Shown here in pieces: positions 3,397-29,801 of a DNA stretch of 29,866 nt (the stretch's first letter is position 1; the number at the start of each line of letters is the position of its first letter). Below the pieces are notes generated by a model, which searched no databases, was not told where the DNA came from, and was given only the letters and a program-made list of their open reading frames with translations. The position numbers were made by a program, and so were the translations under genes. The stretch is from IMG/VR virus record IMGVR_UViG_3300017605_000122, positions 1 through 29,866 of that record. The stretch is one strand, 5' to 3'. Source of the stretch: a virus.

Positions 3397-4658
3397 TGGC
3401 CGAATATGTCCAACAGTCCGACGCCATGATCGATCGCCTCGAGCGTGAGCTGCAGGAGCGCAGCGCGTTCATCCAAGGCACCATCGGTTCAGCGCAGGAT
3501 GGCAACGGGCGCGACCTCACCGACAACGAGAAGGAACTCGTGATGTCGGCGAAGACCCGCGTTGATCAGATCAGCGACCAGCTCGAGATGCTCCGCGCTG
3601 CAAGCCGTGCAACGACTGACGCTCGTCATCGCATCACCGAGCTGTCGCACGAGATGGAGACGCTGCGTCGCAACGTCGACACGGGCCCTGTCGAGTACCG
3701 CTCGGCGGGTTCGTACATTCTCGACACGTGGTCGGCGGCGATCGGTGACCGGCCGGCGAGGGAACGGCTTGACATGTTCCTGCGCACTGCCGCTCATCAG
3801 AAGACGTCCGACAACCTCGGCATCATCCCCGACCCGATCCTCGGGCCGGTGCTGAACTTCATCGATTCGGCGCGGCCGCTGGTCACGTTCGACGGTCCGC
3901 AGATGATGACCAACGCGACGTTCTACCGTCCGAAGGTCACCCAGCACACCACGGTCGCGAAGCAAGGTTCGGGTGGTCTGCCCGCCGATGAAAAGTCGGA
4001 GCTGAGCTCGCAGAAGATGACCATCTCCCGTATCACGGGCACCGCGGTTACCTACGGCGGCTATGTCAACGTGTCCCGTCAGAACATGGACTTCTCGAGC
4101 CCGCAGATCATGGACACCGTGATCAACGACCTTGCCGCCCAGTACGCGATCGCAACGGAGGCGGCGTTCGGCGCGGCGCTGATCGCTTCGTCGAACACGA
4201 TCGAGCTCGCGCCGGTCGCGACCGGCACGAACCCGTCAGCGTCGGAAGCGACGGTTGCTCTGTGGGCGGCGGTGGCTGCCGTGTACACGGCGGTCAAGGG
4301 CCAGGGGCGTGTCGCGTTGGCGGTCTCGCCGGGCAAGCTGTCCGCGTGGGCGTCGCTGTTCGCTCCGGTGAACCCGCAGAACTCGCAGTCGACCGGGTTC
4401 CGCGCCGGTGACTTCGGTCAGGGCGTCATCGGTCAGATCTCCGGCATTCCGGTGATCATGTCGGCGGGCATTGCTGGCGCCGCGACCGACTTCGGTGTCG
4501 TGTTCTCCACCGCCGCGATCGAGTCCTATGAGCAGCGGGTGGGATCGCTGCAGGCAGTTGAGCCGTCGGTGCTCGGTGTGCAGGTTGCGTACGCCGGTTA
4601 CTTCACGCCTCTCGTCGTCGAGACGGGTGGCATTCAGAGAATCACGAACGTCACGTGA
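3396..4658 (+). CDS. Major capsid protein, HK97 fold with delta domain
   Basis: The main shell protein, 420 residues. Residues 1 to about 100 are charged and predicted helical (for example RLERELQERSAF and ITELSHEMETLRR), matching the N-terminal delta domain that scaffolds assembly and is removed by the protease encoded just upstream. The rest resembles HK97-fold capsids, with a segment on aligned F-Y-R-P-K near 195 and a C-terminal Gln/Val-rich strand region. It starts by a one-base overlap with the protease stop. The exact cleavage site cannot be read from sequence alone. Confidence 0.94.
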   Translation: MAEYVQQSDAMIDRLERELQERSAFIQGTIGSAQDGNGRDLTDNEKELVMSAKTRVDQISDQLEMLRAASRATTDARHRITELSHEMETLRRNVDTGPVEYRSAGSYILDTWSAAIGDRPARERLDMFLRTAAHQKTSDNLGIIPDPILGPVLNFIDSARPLVTFDGPQMMTNATFYRPKVTQHTTVAKQGSGGLPADEKSELSSQKMTISRITGTAVTYGGYVNVSRQNMDFSSPQIMDTVINDLAAQYAIATEAAFGAALIASSNTIELAPVATGTNPSASEATVALWAAVAAVYTAVKGQGRVALAVSPGKLSAWASLFAPVNPQNSQSTGFRAGDFGQGVIGQISGIPVIMSAGIAGAATDFGVVFSTAAIESYEQRVGSLQAVEPSVLGVQVAYAGYFTPLVVETGGIQRITNVT

Positions 4659-4888
4659 TCGTCTGGCCTGATGGTTCAGTAACGGGTTCGGTGAACGTCG
4701 CCGAGCTCGAGGAGATTGAGAAGGCTCGCAAGGGCATGTCCGCCAAGAAGCTCGCCGCGATCGGCCCTGTCGAATCGTTGGCGCAGCTTCTGGCGGGTCC
4801 GCCCGACGAGCCGAAGCCCGAACCGGAGTCGGGGCCCGAGGCGTCGGAGGCGGCGCCAGAGGCCCCGACGACCAAGAAGGGGAGCTGA
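4655..4888 (+). CDS. Small hypothetical protein next to capsid
   Basis: A 77-residue protein starting at a GTG that overlaps the capsid stop (GTGA). Residues 1-45 look folded and helical (VAELEEIEKARKG). The C-terminal 30 residues are a low-complexity Pro/Glu/Ala tail ending in a Lys-containing patch. I do not recognise a family. Its place immediately after the major capsid gene is where small decoration or capsid-associated proteins are often encoded, but nothing in the sequence proves such a role. Confidence 0.7.
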   Translation: MIVWPDGSVTGSVNVAELEEIEKARKGMSAKKLAAIGPVESLAQLLAGPPDEPKPEPESGPEASEAAPEAPTTKKGS

Positions 4889-12875: not shown

Positions 12876-14057
12876 ATGCGAATCAACAAACGTCTCGCCG
12901 TGCTCGCGGGCACGGCCGCCATCGTCCTAGGTGCCGCGGCGGTGAACGTCACCAGCTCGAGCGCGGACTCACTCATCTTCTCGGCCGACTTCGCGCAGTC
13001 GTCCGACTTCGCCGCCCAGTTCGACTACGGCTTCTCGGGCGGCGCCGAGATCGGCACAACCTTCCACGGCGACCATGCGGTCGCGCCGATGCCGAACTGC
13101 TCAGGACCGACAACGCTGCGTGATGTGACGATCGGCGGGACGACACAGCAGAACGTCGACTTCTCACAGCTGTTCTGGTGGTGCGCGCCCGACGGGACAC
13201 CCGCCTCAGGCCATATCATGACCGGCGTCGACACGACCGGCTACAACATCGCCTGGTTCGCACCAAAGGCGACGTTCACGCAGATCACCAAGGTCTGCTG
13301 GGATCAGAACATGACGGCCACGTCGGGCCGCAAGTGGAATCAGGTGCTGTTCGTGTCACCTGCCGACGCTGCCCGCTATCCGGCCGGCACGCCCATCCAG
13401 GACGGCGGCACCCTGTCGTCGGCCCGTGGTACGGGCGGGTTCGACCTCGGCTATACGTCCCCCGACTTCCGGGTCGTCGGCGGTGTCGGGACGGGTCTGT
13501 TCCCGCAGGGCGGCACGCTCGCCGGGTTCAAGACCCAGTCGGGCAGCTCCGAATGGTTCCAGAACCAGGACACGTGGACGACCCGCAACCAGGGCCCCGC
13601 GAACTACATCACGCTCGGCACTGACAAGGCGACACGGGTCAAGCACTGCCTCGAGCAGACCGACCCGAACACGATCACGCTCACCCGTGACATGCCGTCG
13701 GGCCCGCTGGTGCGGACAATGGCCGGCCAGATCCCGCAGGGGTCAGTCCGAGTCGTGTTCGAGGACGACAACTACGACCCGTCGAAGGACACCGCGAACT
13801 ACAACCCCGACAACCTGACCTGGCACTGGGACAACGTCCAGATATTCACCGCTGGCGGCCCGCCGCCCACGACGACCGTGGCGCCCACGACGACGGTGGC
13901 CGCTACAACCACCGCGCCGACGACGACCGTGGCCTCTACGACCACTACAGCGGCCACCACGACGACTGTGCCGGCGTGCCCGCCGTCGTTCGCCGCTGAC
14001 GCCCAGGCATGGTGCGCGCAGGTCAACGCAAGGCTCCACGCGCTCGACGGCGGCTGA
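12876..14057 (+). CDS. Secreted jelly-roll-like protein with Thr-rich linker
   Basis: A 393-residue protein in the tail cluster that carries a bacterial-type signal peptide: basic MRINKRL, hydrophobic AVLAGTAAIVLGAAAV, and a probable cleavage after about residue 31. Residues 33-325 look like a beta-rich lectin or lyase-like fold with several Cys (NCSGP, WWCAPDG, KVCWDQN, KHCLEQ) and a final TWHWDNVQIF strand; no catalytic motif is clear. Residues 327-367 are repeated TTTV blocks, and the end holds a CPPSF...AWC pair. ATG at 12876 follows GGAG. Unlike virion proteins, this should be exported from the host. Confidence 0.75.
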   Translation: MRINKRLAVLAGTAAIVLGAAAVNVTSSSADSLIFSADFAQSSDFAAQFDYGFSGGAEIGTTFHGDHAVAPMPNCSGPTTLRDVTIGGTTQQNVDFSQLFWWCAPDGTPASGHIMTGVDTTGYNIAWFAPKATFTQITKVCWDQNMTATSGRKWNQVLFVSPADAARYPAGTPIQDGGTLSSARGTGGFDLGYTSPDFRVVGGVGTGLFPQGGTLAGFKTQSGSSEWFQNQDTWTTRNQGPANYITLGTDKATRVKHCLEQTDPNTITLTRDMPSGPLVRTMAGQIPQGSVRVVFEDDNYDPSKDTANYNPDNLTWHWDNVQIFTAGGPPPTTTVAPTTTVAATTTAPTTTVASTTTTAATTTTVPACPPSFAADAQAWCAQVNARLHALDGG

Positions 14058-17704: not shown

Positions 17705-17871
17705 GCGTTCGCTACAGCGAAGCGACGGGGGCGCCGGCGAGCGTCACGCTCACCGTCGAGGACATGCGCGGGTTCGAGTAGAGGCCACCAGGCATTCCGG
17801 TCTACGGCGGTAACGGCCCCGCGACGAGCGAGCACGGCTAGTGCTGTCTGTTGACGTGGCGTCAGGCTCAT
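17686..17871 (-). CDS. Third gene of leftward operon, basic HTH-like protein
   Basis: A 61-residue protein read leftward from ATG at 17871, overlapping the stop of the gene before it (ATGA). It begins LTPRQQTALAVLARRGAVTA, the look of a winged-helix start, and has a basic middle (RDARRRPRRF). It lies tail-to-tail with the rightward membrane-protein gene. The HTH reading is tentative, since only about half of the sequence fits one. Confidence 0.5.
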   Translation of the reverse strand: MSLTPRQQTALAVLARRGAVTAVDRNAWWPLLEPAHVLDGERDARRRPRRFAVANAHETTT

Positions 17872-18041
17872 TTCACTTTCCACCTTTCGATGGTCGACGT
17901 CCGCCACACAGGCGTCGCCGCCAGCAGCGCGTCAGGCTCGGGCAGCTTGCCACGGTGATACCAGAGGCGGACGAGGGGACGGTCGACGCCGAGCATGGCG
18001 GCGATCTCCACGAGGCCGACAACCTCGAGCGGGCGGGTCAT
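17868..18041 (-). CDS. Small HTH DNA-binding protein (excisionase/MerR-like)
   Basis: A 57-residue protein in the leftward operon, starting at an ATG that overlaps the previous stop (TGATG). Residues 8-32 (VGLVEIAAMLGVDRPLVRLWYHRGKLP) form an HTH of the HTH_17/AlpA/MerR kind: helix, turn, recognition helix, then a wing-like basic turn. A terminal TSTIERWK helix completes the fold. Proteins of this size act as excisionases or small transcription regulators. In this phage no integrase was found, which favours regulation. It could bind the palindrome in its own promoter. Confidence 0.75.
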   Translation of the reverse strand: MTRPLEVVGLVEIAAMLGVDRPLVRLWYHRGKLPEPDALLAATPVWRTSTIERWKVK

Positions 18042-18235
18042 CAGATTCCCAGCTCACGTCGGGCGAACGCCTCGGCCTCGTCGAGAGTCTTGAAGCAGCG
18101 GGCACTGGCGAACTTCCAGACCGGCGCTTCGACGGTGCCCCGAAGGTTCAACCGGCGAACCGTGAACGGTGCCGACAGGTTACCCTTGTCGATGACTTCT
18201 GCTTTCTTGCTTCCCTTTTCGAGTGTCTTTGTCAT
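18041..18235 (-). CDS. First gene of leftward leaderless operon
   Basis: A 64-residue basic protein, ATG at 18235. The -10 box of the leftward promoter ends only 6 bases before this ATG, so the message would begin at or right next to the start codon. The sequence has Lys-rich ends, a strand-like SAPFTVRRLNLRGTVEAPVWKF and a helix TLDEAEAFARREL. No family is recognised. As the first product of the only counter-strand operon it is a candidate Cro- or repressor-like regulator, but no HTH is evident. Confidence 0.68.
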   Translation of the reverse strand: MTKTLEKGSKKAEVIDKGNLSAPFTVRRLNLRGTVEAPVWKFASARCFKTLDEAEAFARRELGI

Positions 18236-18380: not shown

Positions 18381-18722
18381 ATGAGTGACATGGAGAAGGC
18401 CGTCGAAGGCGGCGCCGAGTTCATCGCCGAACAGCAAGCGCACGTCGCCGAAGTGGCAGCCGCCGAGGAAGCACGGCGGGCAGCCGCCGAGGCTGAGGCC
18501 GGCTACCCGCGCCAGTACGACGCCCACACCCGCATGGTCGACGAGACCAACGGCCACGAGTTCATCGGCACCCAATGGGGCTACAACACCGAGGCCGAAG
18601 CGCTCGCCGCCATCGACGCCGCGCGCGCGGCAGACAAGTACGTTATGTACGCGAACCCCGGCGGCGGCAGCTACATCAACGAGCTGTCAGCCGACGACTT
18701 CCGCATCAACGTGGAGGACTGA
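18381..18722 (+). CDS. Small Ala/Glu-rich hypothetical protein
   Basis: A 113-residue protein, ATG preceded by GAGAAAGGA. An N-terminal Ala/Glu-rich helix (about residues 5-38) is followed by a compact C-terminal region (YDAHTRMVDETNGHEF, YNTEAEALAAIDAARAADKYVMY, SADDFRINVED). No family is recognised. It overlaps the next gene by one base and may be cotranscribed with the holin. Confidence 0.7.
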   Translation: MSDMEKAVEGGAEFIAEQQAHVAEVAAAEEARRAAAEAEAGYPRQYDAHTRMVDETNGHEFIGTQWGYNTEAEALAAIDAARAADKYVMYANPGGGSYINELSADDFRINVED

Positions 18723-19269: not shown

Positions 19270-19318
19270 CCTCGACATGGCAGGGACTTCGAGGTCACGG
19301 CTCGGAGGTCCAAACGAA

Positions 19319-19345
19319 GGCCCCCGACTTCGGTCGGGGGTCTTT
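19319..19345 (+). terminator. Intrinsic terminator after holin gene
   Basis: CCCCCGAC, a UUCG loop and GTCGGGGG form an eight-base perfect GC-rich stem with an especially stable tetraloop, followed by TCTTT. This is a textbook rho-independent terminator and divides the holin unit from the next operon. Confidence 0.92.
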
Positions 19346-19360
19346 CGTCGTTTCCGGTGC

Positions 19361-19390
19361 TTGCTTTCCATGCGCAGCCCTGCGCATACT
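19361..19390 (+). promoter_or_regulatory. Candidate promoter for the HTH / surface-protein cassette
   Basis: TTGCTT (19361-19366) and CATACT (19385-19390) are separated by 18 bases. The match to consensus is moderate. The expected start of transcription would fall near 19397, so translation at ATG 19400 or 19409 would again be leaderless, and no ribosome site precedes either ATG. The -10 box lies inside the first palindrome. Confidence 0.45.
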
Positions 19391-19410
19391 CCATGCGCAA
19401 TGGTGCGCAT
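19370..19410. promoter_or_regulatory. Twin 18-bp palindromic operators
   Basis: Two copies of ATGCGCA-N4-TGCGCAT sit at 19370-19387 and 19393-19410, 23 bases centre to centre. Each contains two TGCGCA hexamers 10 bases apart, so four copies are on one face of the helix (19371, 19381, 19394, 19404). The second palindrome runs into the ATG codon at 19409. The obvious candidate binder is the HTH protein that begins there, giving autoregulation. Confidence 0.82.
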
Positions 19411-19606
19411 GAACGACTACTGGATGTCATCGACGGTTGCTGCCGCGATGCTCGGCCTTTCGAGGTCGCAGATCAACCGGCTAGCGGCCGCCGGCGAGCT
19501 GAACGCCGAGAAGATCGGCGGCGTGTGGATGTTCCGCAGCTCCGACGTGGACGCCTACGCCCTCCGTCGTGGCCGGGTGGGTTCCACATCCCACCCACAC
19601 GGCTAA
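19400..19606 (+). CDS. Excisionase-type HTH regulator
   Basis: A 68-residue protein from ATG 19400, or 65 residues from ATG 19409, both without a ribosome site. The central part (STVAAAMLGLSRSQINRLA-to-AGELNAEKIGGVWMF) is an HTH_17 excisionase-family domain: two helices, a turn, and a wing region with the GGVWMFRSSDVDAY pattern typical of these proteins. Small regulators and excisionases share it. No integrase was found, and its start lies inside a pair of palindromes, so an autoregulated repressor is favoured. It is followed by a surface-protein gene. Confidence 0.85.
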   Translation: MVRMNDYWMSSTVAAAMLGLSRSQINRLAAAGELNAEKIGGVWMFRSSDVDAYALRRGRVGSTSHPHG

Positions 19607-19619
19607 CCCACCCGGCCAC
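19569..19619 (+). promoter_or_regulatory. Large inverted repeat with alternative pairing
   Basis: A perfect 15-base arm (19569-19583, with core GGCCGGGTGGGTT) pairs with 19605-19619. The arm overlaps the end of the HTH gene. The loop contains CCCACCC (19590-19596), which could pair with GGGTGGG (19575-19581) instead, making the two structures mutually exclusive. No T run follows, so it is not a standard terminator. It sits before the ribosome site of the surface protein and could gate its translation. Confidence 0.7.
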
Positions 19620-19649
19620 CCCTGTCACAACACCAACGAAAGGCAAGAC

Positions 19650-20561
19650 ATGAGAACCTGGACCGACGCCCACGACCCCCGACTCTCGCGAACCGTCGGC
19701 CTCGGCCTCGGCCTCCTCGCGATCGCCGTCCTGCTGCTCGTCGCGATCTTCGCGCTCGGCGGCAAAGCCGGCGCCAACGTGCCGAACACGAACGAGGTCG
19801 CCTACTGGTGCCCGAACGGCGGCGTCAAGTACGACAACCTGACGTCGAGCTCGTTCACGGTGCCGGCACCGCCCGACGGCAAAACATGGTCGCTGCTCGT
19901 GCTCAAAGCCGGCTCCGACCAGTCGGTCGAGAATGAGAACGAGACGTTCCCGAACCCGGTGGTGGGTCAGTCGTACTCACACTCGAGCGGGAAGACGCTG
20001 AGCCATGCGATCTTGTGCTACGGCCCGCCGGTGACCACCACGACAGGTGCCACCACGACCGGGGCGTCAACAACGCTGGCGACCACGACCACGGGCGCGA
20101 CCACGACCGGTGGCACGACGACAGTCGTCGTGACGAACCCGCAGACCGTCCCGACGACCACGATCGCGACCACCACGACGTTCTGCGACGAGGACGAATG
20201 CACGACCACGACCGCGCCGACGACCACGGCCGCGACGACGACGGTGCCGCGCACGACGACGACCGCAGCGACAACGACCGCAGCGACAACGACCGGCCCG
20301 CCGTGCGATGTCGCTCACAGCTGCATCTCGATCCCCGTCACGACCGCCTCGACGATCGCCACCACGACGACCGTGGCGCCGCCAACGACGATCCCCGACA
20401 CCACCGCCGTCGACCAGACGCTGCCACCCGCACCGGCGGCACCGGTGACGCCTGCGCCGACGACGCTGCCGGTGACCGGTGGCTCGCCGTGGTGGCTGGC
20501 GCTGTTCGGTGTGTGCCTTGTCGGTCTCGGCGGTCTGCTCGTGGCGTGGCGGCGGTCGTGA
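19650..20561 (+). CDS. LPXTG cell-wall-anchored surface protein
   Basis: A 303-residue predicted sortase substrate. Residues 16-37 are a strongly hydrophobic signal segment, with likely cleavage after KAGA. Residues 45-120 form a small domain (VAYWCPNGGVKYDN, KTLSHAILCYGP) of a sort seen in actinobacterial wall proteins. Residues 124-272 are a Thr-rich stalk interrupted by CDEDEC and CDVAHSC pairs. The end is LPVTG at 273-277, a hydrophobic span and RRS, a complete sortase sorting signal. The ribosome site is GAAAGG. A phage protein fixed on the host wall suggests surface remodelling or superinfection exclusion; this is inference. Confidence 0.88.
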   Translation: MRTWTDAHDPRLSRTVGLGLGLLAIAVLLLVAIFALGGKAGANVPNTNEVAYWCPNGGVKYDNLTSSSFTVPAPPDGKTWSLLVLKAGSDQSVENENETFPNPVVGQSYSHSSGKTLSHAILCYGPPVTTTTGATTTGASTTLATTTTGATTTGGTTTVVVTNPQTVPTTTIATTTTFCDEDECTTTTAPTTTAATTTVPRTTTTAATTTAATTTGPPCDVAHSCISIPVTTASTIATTTTVAPPTTIPDTTAVDQTLPPAPAAPVTPAPTTLPVTGGSPWWLALFGVCLVGLGGLLVAWRRS

Positions 20562-20662
20562 CGAAAAAGACGCCCCGTAACGGTTACACGCCCAAGAAGG
20601 GTCGGCCGACCCCCAAGCAGGTAAAGGGTCATATCCCCCAACCGAAGAAGGGGACACCGTGA
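20558..20662 (+). CDS. Small basic Lys/Pro peptide
   Basis: A 34-residue open frame starting with the GTGA overlap at the surface-protein stop and overlapping the next gene's GTG by four bases. It is very basic and includes KKGRPTPKQ, which resembles the start of actinobacterial DUF3043 proteins. No independent evidence of function exists; its tight packing supports it being read. It may be a translated linker. Confidence 0.5.
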   Translation: MTKKTPRNGYTPKKGRPTPKQVKGHIPQPKKGTP

Positions 20663-21723
20663 CCACCGCTGACTTGTGGGATGCCCTCGACCACGCCGAC
20701 AAGATCCCCCGCGACCGCTACGGCCGGCCGATCATTCCGCCCGCGTCGGGAGGAAAGCCAAAGCCCTATACGCGCGTGACAACTTTGGCCGAGACCTTGG
20801 ATGACCGCTACAACCTGGAGAAGTGGAAGCAGCGACAGGTCGCCGTCGGGCTCATGCTGCGCCGCGACCTCTTGAACCTTGTCGCCGCTCAGAAGGACGA
20901 CAAGCAGGCCCTCGACAAGACGTGCGATGAGGCGATCAGCGCGGCCAGTGGCGGTGCCGCGGCGAACACGGGCACGGCGCTGCACGCCCTCACCGAGCAG
21001 CTGCACAAGGGCGCCGACCATACGCTGATCCCCGAGCATCTCCGTGACGACATCGCCGCCTATCAGGCGTGCCTGGAACGGCACAGCATCACGGTCGTCG
21101 AGGTCGAGCAGTTCGTGGTGTGCGAGGCGCTCGAGGTCGCGGGCACGCTCGACCGCGTGATGCGAGTGAACGGCCAGCTGTGCATCGGTGATCTCAAGAC
21201 CGGCGCGGGAGCGGTCGATTACGGCCTGGCCGGCATCGCCATTCAGCTCGCTTGCTATGCGCACGCGGAGACTTCGTGGTCACCGGCGGAAGGACACAAG
21301 GAACGTCCGTTCATCAACGGCTCACGCGCCTACGTGCTGCATCTCATCCCCGGCAGCGGCCACTGCGAGCTCGTCGAGGTCGACATCGTGGTCGGGTACG
21401 AAGCCGCTCAACGTGCCAGATGGGTACGCGAGTACCGCAAACGCAAAGACCTCGGCCGCTCGGTGACGTCGGCGGCGGACACGCTCGACTTCCGACGGGA
21501 ATGGATCGCGCAACGTGTCCGCGCGCTCCCCGATAACGCGGTCGAGACGTTGGCCCGCATGATCGTCGACGCCGAGCTGCCACGGGTCAGCATGTCCACC
21601 GACGCCCACCTCGACGACTGGGCGACGCTGCTCGACGTGATCGAGGCCGAGTATCAGGTGCCGTTCGGACCGTTCGACCCGACCAAACCGAAGACCAAAC
21701 GACCAGCGAAACGAAAGGCATAG
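20659..21723 (+). CDS. RecB/Cas4-like PD-(D/E)XK exonuclease
   Basis: A 354-residue nuclease likely acting in recombination or DNA processing. Motifs appear in order: TGTALHALTEQL with H109, VEVEQF (E150), AGTLDRV with D165, GDLKTG with D178 and K180, then the QLACY motif (Q196, Y200) of the RecB/Cas4 superfamily. No iron-sulfur Cys cluster is evident, so a Cas4 role is not supported. The C-terminus is basic. It is followed by an SSB-like gene and later by a resolvase-like nuclease, forming a recombination group. Confidence 0.88.
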   Translation: MTTADLWDALDHADKIPRDRYGRPIIPPASGGKPKPYTRVTTLAETLDDRYNLEKWKQRQVAVGLMLRRDLLNLVAAQKDDKQALDKTCDEAISAASGGAAANTGTALHALTEQLHKGADHTLIPEHLRDDIAAYQACLERHSITVVEVEQFVVCEALEVAGTLDRVMRVNGQLCIGDLKTGAGAVDYGLAGIAIQLACYAHAETSWSPAEGHKERPFINGSRAYVLHLIPGSGHCELVEVDIVVGYEAAQRARWVREYRKRKDLGRSVTSAADTLDFRREWIAQRVRALPDNAVETLARMIVDAELPRVSMSTDAHLDDWATLLDVIEAEYQVPFGPFDPTKPKTKRPAKRKA

Positions 21724-28874: not shown

Positions 28875-29342
28875 TTGTCCGTTGACCCGATCGCCCGACA
28901 GCTGCAGACCGCCGCCGAATGCGTCGCCCGGCTCCAACGCGACCATCGGGCCGTCACCGCGAACATGGCCGCCGGCATGGTCCCCGCCCGCAGCCTCACC
29001 GTCACCGCTACCGCCGACCCTGACGGGTCCGTCACCTGGACGTCGGTGGAGGCATCCGGCAACCTGCGGATCCACACCCAAGTTGGTCGCTACCAGCAGC
29101 TCGTCGAACACGCCCTCGTCAACCTCCTCGAAGCCGACCTCCTGCGAGGGCTCAACGTCACCGCCAACACGGTGCCCCTCGTCGCCCAGGAGCGTTGCGA
29201 CGGCGGCCACGGCGACTGGGCCGACCCGACCTGTGAGCGCAACGCCGTGAGTAAGGCGATATGGATCGAGGGCATCCAGCACCAACTGTGCCAGCGGTGC
29301 TGGGATCGCTACCGGCAGCAGAAGCATCGGGGGCAGACGTGA
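28875..29342 (+). CDS. Hypothetical protein with C-terminal zinc-finger-like Cys set
   Basis: A 155-residue protein starting at TTG 28875, with AGAGGAG 7 bases upstream. The first 100 residues have a helix (LQTAAECVARLQRDH), a strand pair (RSLTVTATADPDGSVTW) and further helices. Four Cys (108, 120, 139, 142) with DWADPTCERN and CQRCWDRYRQQK form a likely zinc site with a basic tail. It lies just after the candidate origin and before the packaging genes. No family recognised; a small-terminase role cannot be excluded but nothing shows it. Confidence 0.7.
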   Translation: MSVDPIARQLQTAAECVARLQRDHRAVTANMAAGMVPARSLTVTATADPDGSVTWTSVEASGNLRIHTQVGRYQQLVEHALVNLLEADLLRGLNVTANTVPLVAQERCDGGHGDWADPTCERNAVSKAIWIEGIQHQLCQRCWDRYRQQKHRGQT

Positions 29343-29350
29343 CGTGGTTG

Positions 29351-29378
29351 TTGTCACAGACTTACCGCTCGGTATAGG
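29351..29378 (+). promoter_or_regulatory. Candidate promoter for the packaging/late genes
   Basis: TTGTCA (29351-29356) and TATAGG (29373-29378) are separated by 16 bases. The -35 box is near consensus, the -10 box weaker. It lies in the gap between the zinc protein and the acidic peptide, the right place to drive HNH, terminase and structural genes around the circle. The 82-base gap also contains the leader of the acidic peptide. Confidence 0.55.
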
Positions 29379-29424
29379 GTGCCAGTCACCTACTGTCCCC
29401 GACCTGTCCCCAGGGAGACATCAG

Positions 29425-29508
29425 ATGTCCGACGTGCCTAACGACGAACAGCCCGAAGACGAGGCCGAGGCCGAGGACACCGAGCCTGAGGCTGACCCCG
29501 AGGAGTAG
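29425..29508 (+). CDS. Tiny acidic peptide before HNH
   Basis: A 27-residue open frame, ATG with CAGGGAG 10 bases upstream. Fourteen of 27 residues are Asp or Glu, and none is basic. It is directly followed by the HNH gene. Acidic peptides of this sort can mimic DNA or bind basic proteins, but this is an inference. Its independence as a gene is uncertain because of its short length. Confidence 0.55.
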   Translation: MSDVPNDEQPEDEAEAEDTEPEADPEE

Positions 29509-29510
29509 GC

Positions 29511-29801
29511 GTGCACCCGGCTCGAGGTGCCGGCACCCACACCGTCAGGGTGCCCCGTGCCTGCCTTACGTGTGGCATGCCCACCACCGCCACCCGCTGC
29601 ACGACCTGTCAGCACCTCCACCGTGGCGGCACCTACGCCCGAAGATCACGCCAAGTGCGAGCCAACGCAACCGTGTGCTGGCTGTGCGGACGAGGCCCCG
29701 ACCCGCACGATGGGTGGGAAGCCGACCATGTCGACCCGTCGAACCCGCTCAGCGAGCTGCGCGCGGCTCATGCGTCATGCAACCTCGCACGACGCACATG
29801 A
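29511..29801 (+). CDS. HNH endonuclease
   Basis: A 96-residue HNH nuclease: CWLCG (C56, C59), then WEADHVDPSNPL with D72-H73 and N78, and AAHASCNLARRT with H87, C90 and N91. An additional N-terminal Cys group (C18, C21, C30, C33) suggests a second zinc site. HNH nucleases placed just before the terminase cooperate with it in cutting the genome at cohesive ends, for example in HK97. On the circular map it lies about 130 bases before terL. The GTG start is 2 bases after the acidic peptide stop. Confidence 0.93.
   Translation: MHPARGAGTHTVRVPRACLTCGMPTTATRCTTCQHLHRGGTYARRSRQVRANATVCWLCGRGPDPHDGWEADHVDPSNPLSELRAAHASCNLARRT

Follow-up and report, generated by a model that had tools for sequence, protein, structure and literature searches.

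The closest described relatives of the protein reported here are the sortase-dependent proteins of actinobacteria (LPXTG/LAXTG; class E sortase substrates, PMC5148588), which share with it an apparent signal peptide, an N-terminal domain of the same family, a Thr-rich stalk, an L(P/A)XTG motif, a transmembrane (TM) segment and an Arg tail. They differ in three respects: our protein is encoded by a phage, the domain identity is about 45%, and the phage motifs are LPVTG or LPHTG, whereas the intact chromosomal cousins that we read have LATTG or LAATG. A phage-borne LPXTG gene has also been reported from phiD12-like prophages of group B streptococcus (PMC6546898), which we liken to ours by description. 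That gene, however, is cargo of a Firmicute prophage and a proposed adhesin, whereas the present gene lies in an exonuclease-side operon of a record in which no integration genes were seen. In their effect, two small phage proteins made during lytic growth offer an analogy, because they exclude other phages: T5 Llp, a periplasmic lipoprotein that blocks FhuA (PMC9586334), and Fruitloop gp52, which acts on Wag31 (PMC6426606). Neither is wall-anchored, unlike the protein predicted here. The literature that we searched hardly describes any phage protein that changes the Gram-positive wall surface by way of the host sortase.

The DNA analysed (the window) is the whole virus record IMGVR_UViG_3300017605_000122, positions 1 to 29,866 (29,866 nucleotides), a siphophage-like contig of 29.9 kb with 66% GC. 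Its left part holds a terminase of the phrog_9 type, portal-, protease- and capsid-like genes, a tape measure, an Amidase_2 endolysin and a holin (the portal, protease, capsid and tape-measure names come from inspection of the sequence alone); its right part holds exonuclease, RusA, Mom-like, methyltransferase, WhiB and primase-helicase genes. Of the 343 GenBank phage records that match the exonuclease, 342 are actinobacteriophages by name, with Streptomyces, Mycobacterium, Gordonia, Corynebacterium, Nocardia or Microbacterium as the host named, and the remaining one is Dulem virus 32. An actinobacterium is thus the most likely host of the window phage.

A phage gene for a predicted wall-anchored protein

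The features discussed below are collected in Table 1. The first-pass annotation had placed a complete LPXTG gene in a cassette running from 19370 to 20662; the gene is indeed complete, and it stops at 20561, the remainder of the interval (from 20558) being a separate open reading frame (ORF).

Table 1. Positions of the features in the window; the parts of the LPXTG protein are given in residues.
Feature	Position	Strand	Basis or remark
Second secreted Thr-rich protein	12876-14057	+	Signal peptide, TTTT stalk, no LPXTG; among tail-side genes
Intrinsic-terminator-like hairpin	19316-19347	+	End of lysis/holin operon; fold energy; terminator-like minus-strand match on the same stem
Palindrome 1, ATGCGCAGCCCTGCGCAT	19370-19387		ATGCGCA-N4-TGCGCAT; putative operator
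Palindrome 2, ATGCGCAATGGTGCGCAT	19393-19410		ATGCGCA-N4-TGCGCAT; over start of HTH gene
HTH_17/excisionase-type DNA-binding protein, 67 aa	19403-19606	+	Start GTG 19403 or ATG 19409; putative early-operon regulator
Inverted repeat, 15 bp perfect, 21-nt loop	19569-19619	+	z -5.3; straddles HTH stop codon
LPXTG surface protein gene, 303 aa	19650-20561	+	ATG start; TIGR01167 over cut-off; architecture of viral homologues
Its apparent signal peptide	residues ~1-42
Its globular domain (~85 aa)	residues ~45-125
Its Thr-rich stalk	residues ~127-270
Its sorting signal end	residues 273-303
Basic ORF, 34 codons, VTKKTPRNGYTPKKGRPTPKQ...	20558-20662	+	Overlaps both neighbours by 4 nt
Cas4-like / PD-(D/E)XK exonuclease	20659-21723	+	Next operon gene; PHROG 466 E 2.7e-68; PF12705

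By eye rather than by a signal-peptide predictor, the N-terminus shows a basic start, about 20 hydrophobic residues and AGA before residue 43. At the other end, LPVTG at residues 273-277 is followed by a TM helix and an RRS tail, and TIGR01167 matches residues 272-302 with 18.5 bits (cut-off 15.9). The proposal, made in the first-pass annotation, that a phage gene here encodes a protein of the sortase-anchored type is supported. The product appears to be built for export and for fixation to the bacterial wall, where a sortase would cleave and link it.

The AlphaFold model of the N-terminal domain, based on 13 sequences, is a confident beta-rich fold (pLDDT 88), and a disulfide may join the two cysteines that the alignment shows in most members. 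Comparison with the PDB, by sequence and by fold, and with a viral fold library gave no convincing match (no structure at E 0.001 or better). The protein's family likewise has no match in Pfam, the PHROGs or GenBank phages, the last searched with tblastn. We describe a real phage cargo gene of a generally known kind, whose family and setting are absent from the libraries searched.

Relatives in other phages and in chromosomes

An alignment-based genome scan found nothing; relatives did turn up when HxxGKx(hydrophobic)SH(A/V)(I/V)xC was sought as a degenerate pattern at the DNA level. In IMG/VR, homologues lie on four other virus contigs: L001 (7.1 kb), L002 (record G002, 58 kb) and the near-identical pair L004 and L005 (records G003 and G004). 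All keep the apparent signal peptide, the same domain, the Thr-rich stalk, the membrane helix and the basic tail. Homologues lacking LPXTG had been named beforehand as evidence that would tell against a wall-anchored product; every phage homologue carries the motif, as LPVTG in L001 and as LPHTG in the other three. The TIGR01167 cut-off is passed by the window protein and L002 only; L004 reaches 13.9 against 15.9, and L001 matches a related model only, below that model's cut-off.

Between the window, L001 and L002, the N-terminal domains are 81-88% identical in pairs with a dN/dS of 0.19-0.20, which indicates purifying selection on the gene in phages. Judged by their genes, G002 (phrog_38-type terminase, portal and tape measure) and G003 (phrog_38-type terminase and helicase) are real tailed phages with a terminase family other than that of the window. 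The gene occurs in three different neighbourhoods; L001 and G003 are alike in the surrounding gene order, and G002 differs. That separate phage lineages conserve the gene under selection suggests that it pays the phage. In G002 it is accompanied by glycosyltransferase, FkbM methyltransferase, PIG-L and glycerophosphotransferase genes, a set of glycan-modifying neighbours that fits surface remodelling and makes glycosylation of the stalk possible. On contig IMGVR_UViG_3300010397_000011 (L020:4172-10243), glycosyltransferases, an FkbM methyltransferase, a PIG-L deacetylase and a glycerophosphotransferase surround an LPXTG gene.

Among bacteria, the degenerate pattern located the domain in Actinotalea, Microlunatus, Cellulomonas, Nostocoides, several uncultured Actinomycetota and one Saccharibacteria assembly. 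It is sparse there, being present in 4 of 396 genomes in the phylum and in 9 of 296 in the class of one carrier genome, the weaker matches being uncertain. In G006 and G659 the chromosomal copies are built in the same way, carry an LATTG or LAATG signal and have housekeeping genes as neighbours. Sortase genes are present in eight of nine bacterial genomes with the cousin domain that were checked and in none of the phages. Because the phages keep LPXTG, three of their N-terminal domains show a dN/dS of about 0.2, and the chromosomal cousins of like architecture mostly occur together with sortases, the gene looks like a host surface protein captured from an actinobacterium and held under selection. 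Phages apparently retain it and pass it among themselves as a means of altering the infected cell's surface, perhaps so as to exclude rival phages.

A tree of 17 domains unites the window, L001 and L002 in a supported clade and places L004 close by. A chromosomal copy, L042, which has an in-frame stop and lacks LPXTG, sits between L004 and that clade. That the chromosomal sequence standing closest to the phage copies is broken and lacks LPXTG counts against our preferred reading, given below, and because L042 falls inside the phage group, a single capture, or a single phage origin, stays unproven. More than one capture is possible, as is a phage-derived origin of L042 itself. At L056 (about 3900-4677, plus strand) lies a chromosomal homologue of the domain that has an in-frame stop and lacks LPXTG; of the bacterial sequences in the tree, it stands closest to the phage copies.

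Place in the operon and probable function

The LPXTG gene, the 34-codon ORF and the exonuclease gene overlap by 4 nt at each junction and are therefore probably one translation-coupled unit. The 34-codon ORF has no family match; its phrase TPKKGRPTPK presumably recalls actinobacterial DUF3043 proteins. The window's gene order recurs in the Streptomyces phages Loofah and Pablito, namely endolysin, holin (a hypothetical gene in Pablito), minus-strand gene, regulator, variable gene, Cas4 exonuclease and, further on, RusA/resolvase. They differ from it in that the gene in the variable slot is unrelated and does not encode an LPXTG protein, and in that their regulator is an annotated repressor that by eye is unlike the HTH_17 protein. 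By gene order, then, the HTH gene would be a lysis/early boundary regulator belonging to the early operon, and the LPXTG gene would occupy the variable slot before the Cas4-like exonuclease. Between the endolysin and holin genes of the window lie two small opposite-strand ORFs, 17868-18041 (-) and 18041-18235 (-); the product of the former is weakly HTH_17/MerR-like and is possibly a counterpart regulator.

Our preferred reading, to which we give a probability of roughly one half, is that the gene is captured actinobacterial cargo (a moron) whose product is made early, anchored by sortase and blocks phage adsorption. Lying between the boundary regulator and the exonuclease on the early side, it would be expected to be expressed soon after infection or derepression. 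The host Sec system would export the protein, the host sortase would cut LPVT|G and join it to the wall, and the 85-aa beta domain would be displayed on the Thr-rich stalk. By shielding or occupying a wall receptor, it could prevent adsorption by other phages, or by the phage's own progeny on debris. The best guess, by analogy with known exclusion proteins, is that it acts at the wall as a shield or decoy, produced at an early stage of infection and probably serving superinfection exclusion. A wider proposal, which we offer tentatively, is that a mobile sortase-anchored family is swapped among unrelated actinobacterial phages as such a shield at the wall, working through the host sortase, and that the stalk in one phage may be glycosylated by neighbouring phage-encoded glycosyltransferases. 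The family offers a small candidate for the way in which phages of little-studied actinobacteria manage competition at the cell surface.

Superinfection exclusion is plausible and is ranked first, and adhesion to the benefit of the host cell second. In the latter case, the displayed protein would be fitness cargo rather than an anti-phage device and would promote adhesion, aggregation, biofilm formation or resistance to grazing. The cousins are indeed ordinary chromosomal surface proteins of actinobacteria, and the adhesin proposed for group B streptococcus prophages is a precedent. Against this, neither a tyrosine integrase (PF00589) nor a serine recombinase (PF00239) was found in the four virus records searched, the window included, so that a lasting lysogen is not evident, with the limit that the records may be incomplete; moreover, the gene shares its operon with the exonuclease and replication-side genes. 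We regard a benefit to the host cell as rather unlikely.

Regulatory elements and a second Thr-rich gene

The elements upstream of the gene that the first-pass annotation had listed are all present, and the non-coding ones exceed chance. The terminator is as strong as had been proposed (stem 19321-19340 with a TTCG loop; extended hairpin -24.4 kcal/mol, z -5.3). The palindrome pattern occurs at these two sites in the window and nowhere else, and TGCGCA occurs four times in 39 bp, whereas 300 Markov-2 simulations gave at most two in 45 bp. With either start codon, the HTH gene begins inside palindrome 2, as described earlier. Any sigma-70 promoter in the palindrome region would be poor, the match being 7/12, and none at 9/12 or better was found. 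The HTH protein matches PF12728 (E 1.2e-11; 45.2 bits against a cut-off of 27), TIGR01764 (33.8 bits, over the cut-off) and PHROG 66. As for a role as Xis, no partner integrase was found in the window with PF00589 and PF00239, in a record that may be incomplete.

The inverted repeat, with arms GTGGCCGGGTGGGTT (19569-19583) and AACCCACCCGGCCAC (19605-19619), is alone in the window in having arms of at least 11 bp and a loop not exceeding 30 nt, and 30 simulated windows yielded none of 14 bp or more. The alternative pairing claimed for it also exists: the left arm can pair instead around 19590-19596, in a short hairpin of -15.6 kcal/mol versus -31.9 kcal/mol for the main one. Sequestration of a ribosome-binding site is ruled out, since the ribosome site of the LPXTG gene, GAAAGG at 19638-19643, lies 3' of the hairpin, and a classical terminator is disfavoured because a T tract is absent. 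The hairpin may be a pause, a partial terminator or a processing site. The idea of an RNA switch in the gap before the LPXTG gene finds no support in the comparison: no homologous leader was found beside the other homologues, nor any Rfam match.

The first-pass annotation had read the HTH gene, the palindromes, the hairpin and the LPXTG gene as one deliberate cassette, in which the first three would form a dedicated switch timing the fourth. In favour of such a switch, both the palindromes and the hairpin exist and lie well outside chance expectation, and the HTH gene starts within an operator-like palindrome. However, when the same gene order was looked for in related phages, no HTH_17 gene, TGCGCA sites or long inverted repeat was found beside the homologues, and the order of regulator, variable gene and exonuclease recurs, without LPXTG, in the Streptomyces phages. 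This shared order allows the HTH gene and palindromes to be explained as the operon's own control, with no need of a switch for the LPXTG gene, whose ribosome site is in any case outside the hairpin. Among the 28 other IMG/VR contigs with the operator pattern, several of which are simple tandem repeats, none has a homologous HTH gene within 1 kb, and the pattern thus fails to link operator to regulator; short exact peptides retrieved no IMG/VR relatives of the HTH protein or the exonuclease. We consider a dedicated switch decidedly improbable.

That the LPXTG protein is part of the virion is very improbable: the second secreted Thr-rich gene lies among the tail-side genes, so that exported Thr-rich proteins occur beyond one module, but LPXTG with a TM helix and a basic tail serves to retain a protein at the wall, the gene is outside the structural block, and its homologues are bacterial surface proteins. 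The second Thr-rich protein itself has no family match in Pfam, PHROG and LPXTG-model searches. Finally, a small MSDMEKAVEGGAEF... protein occurs in similar sequence in the window at 18381-18722 (+) and in G002 at 29269-29616 (-), which is a hint that the two phages share a host group.
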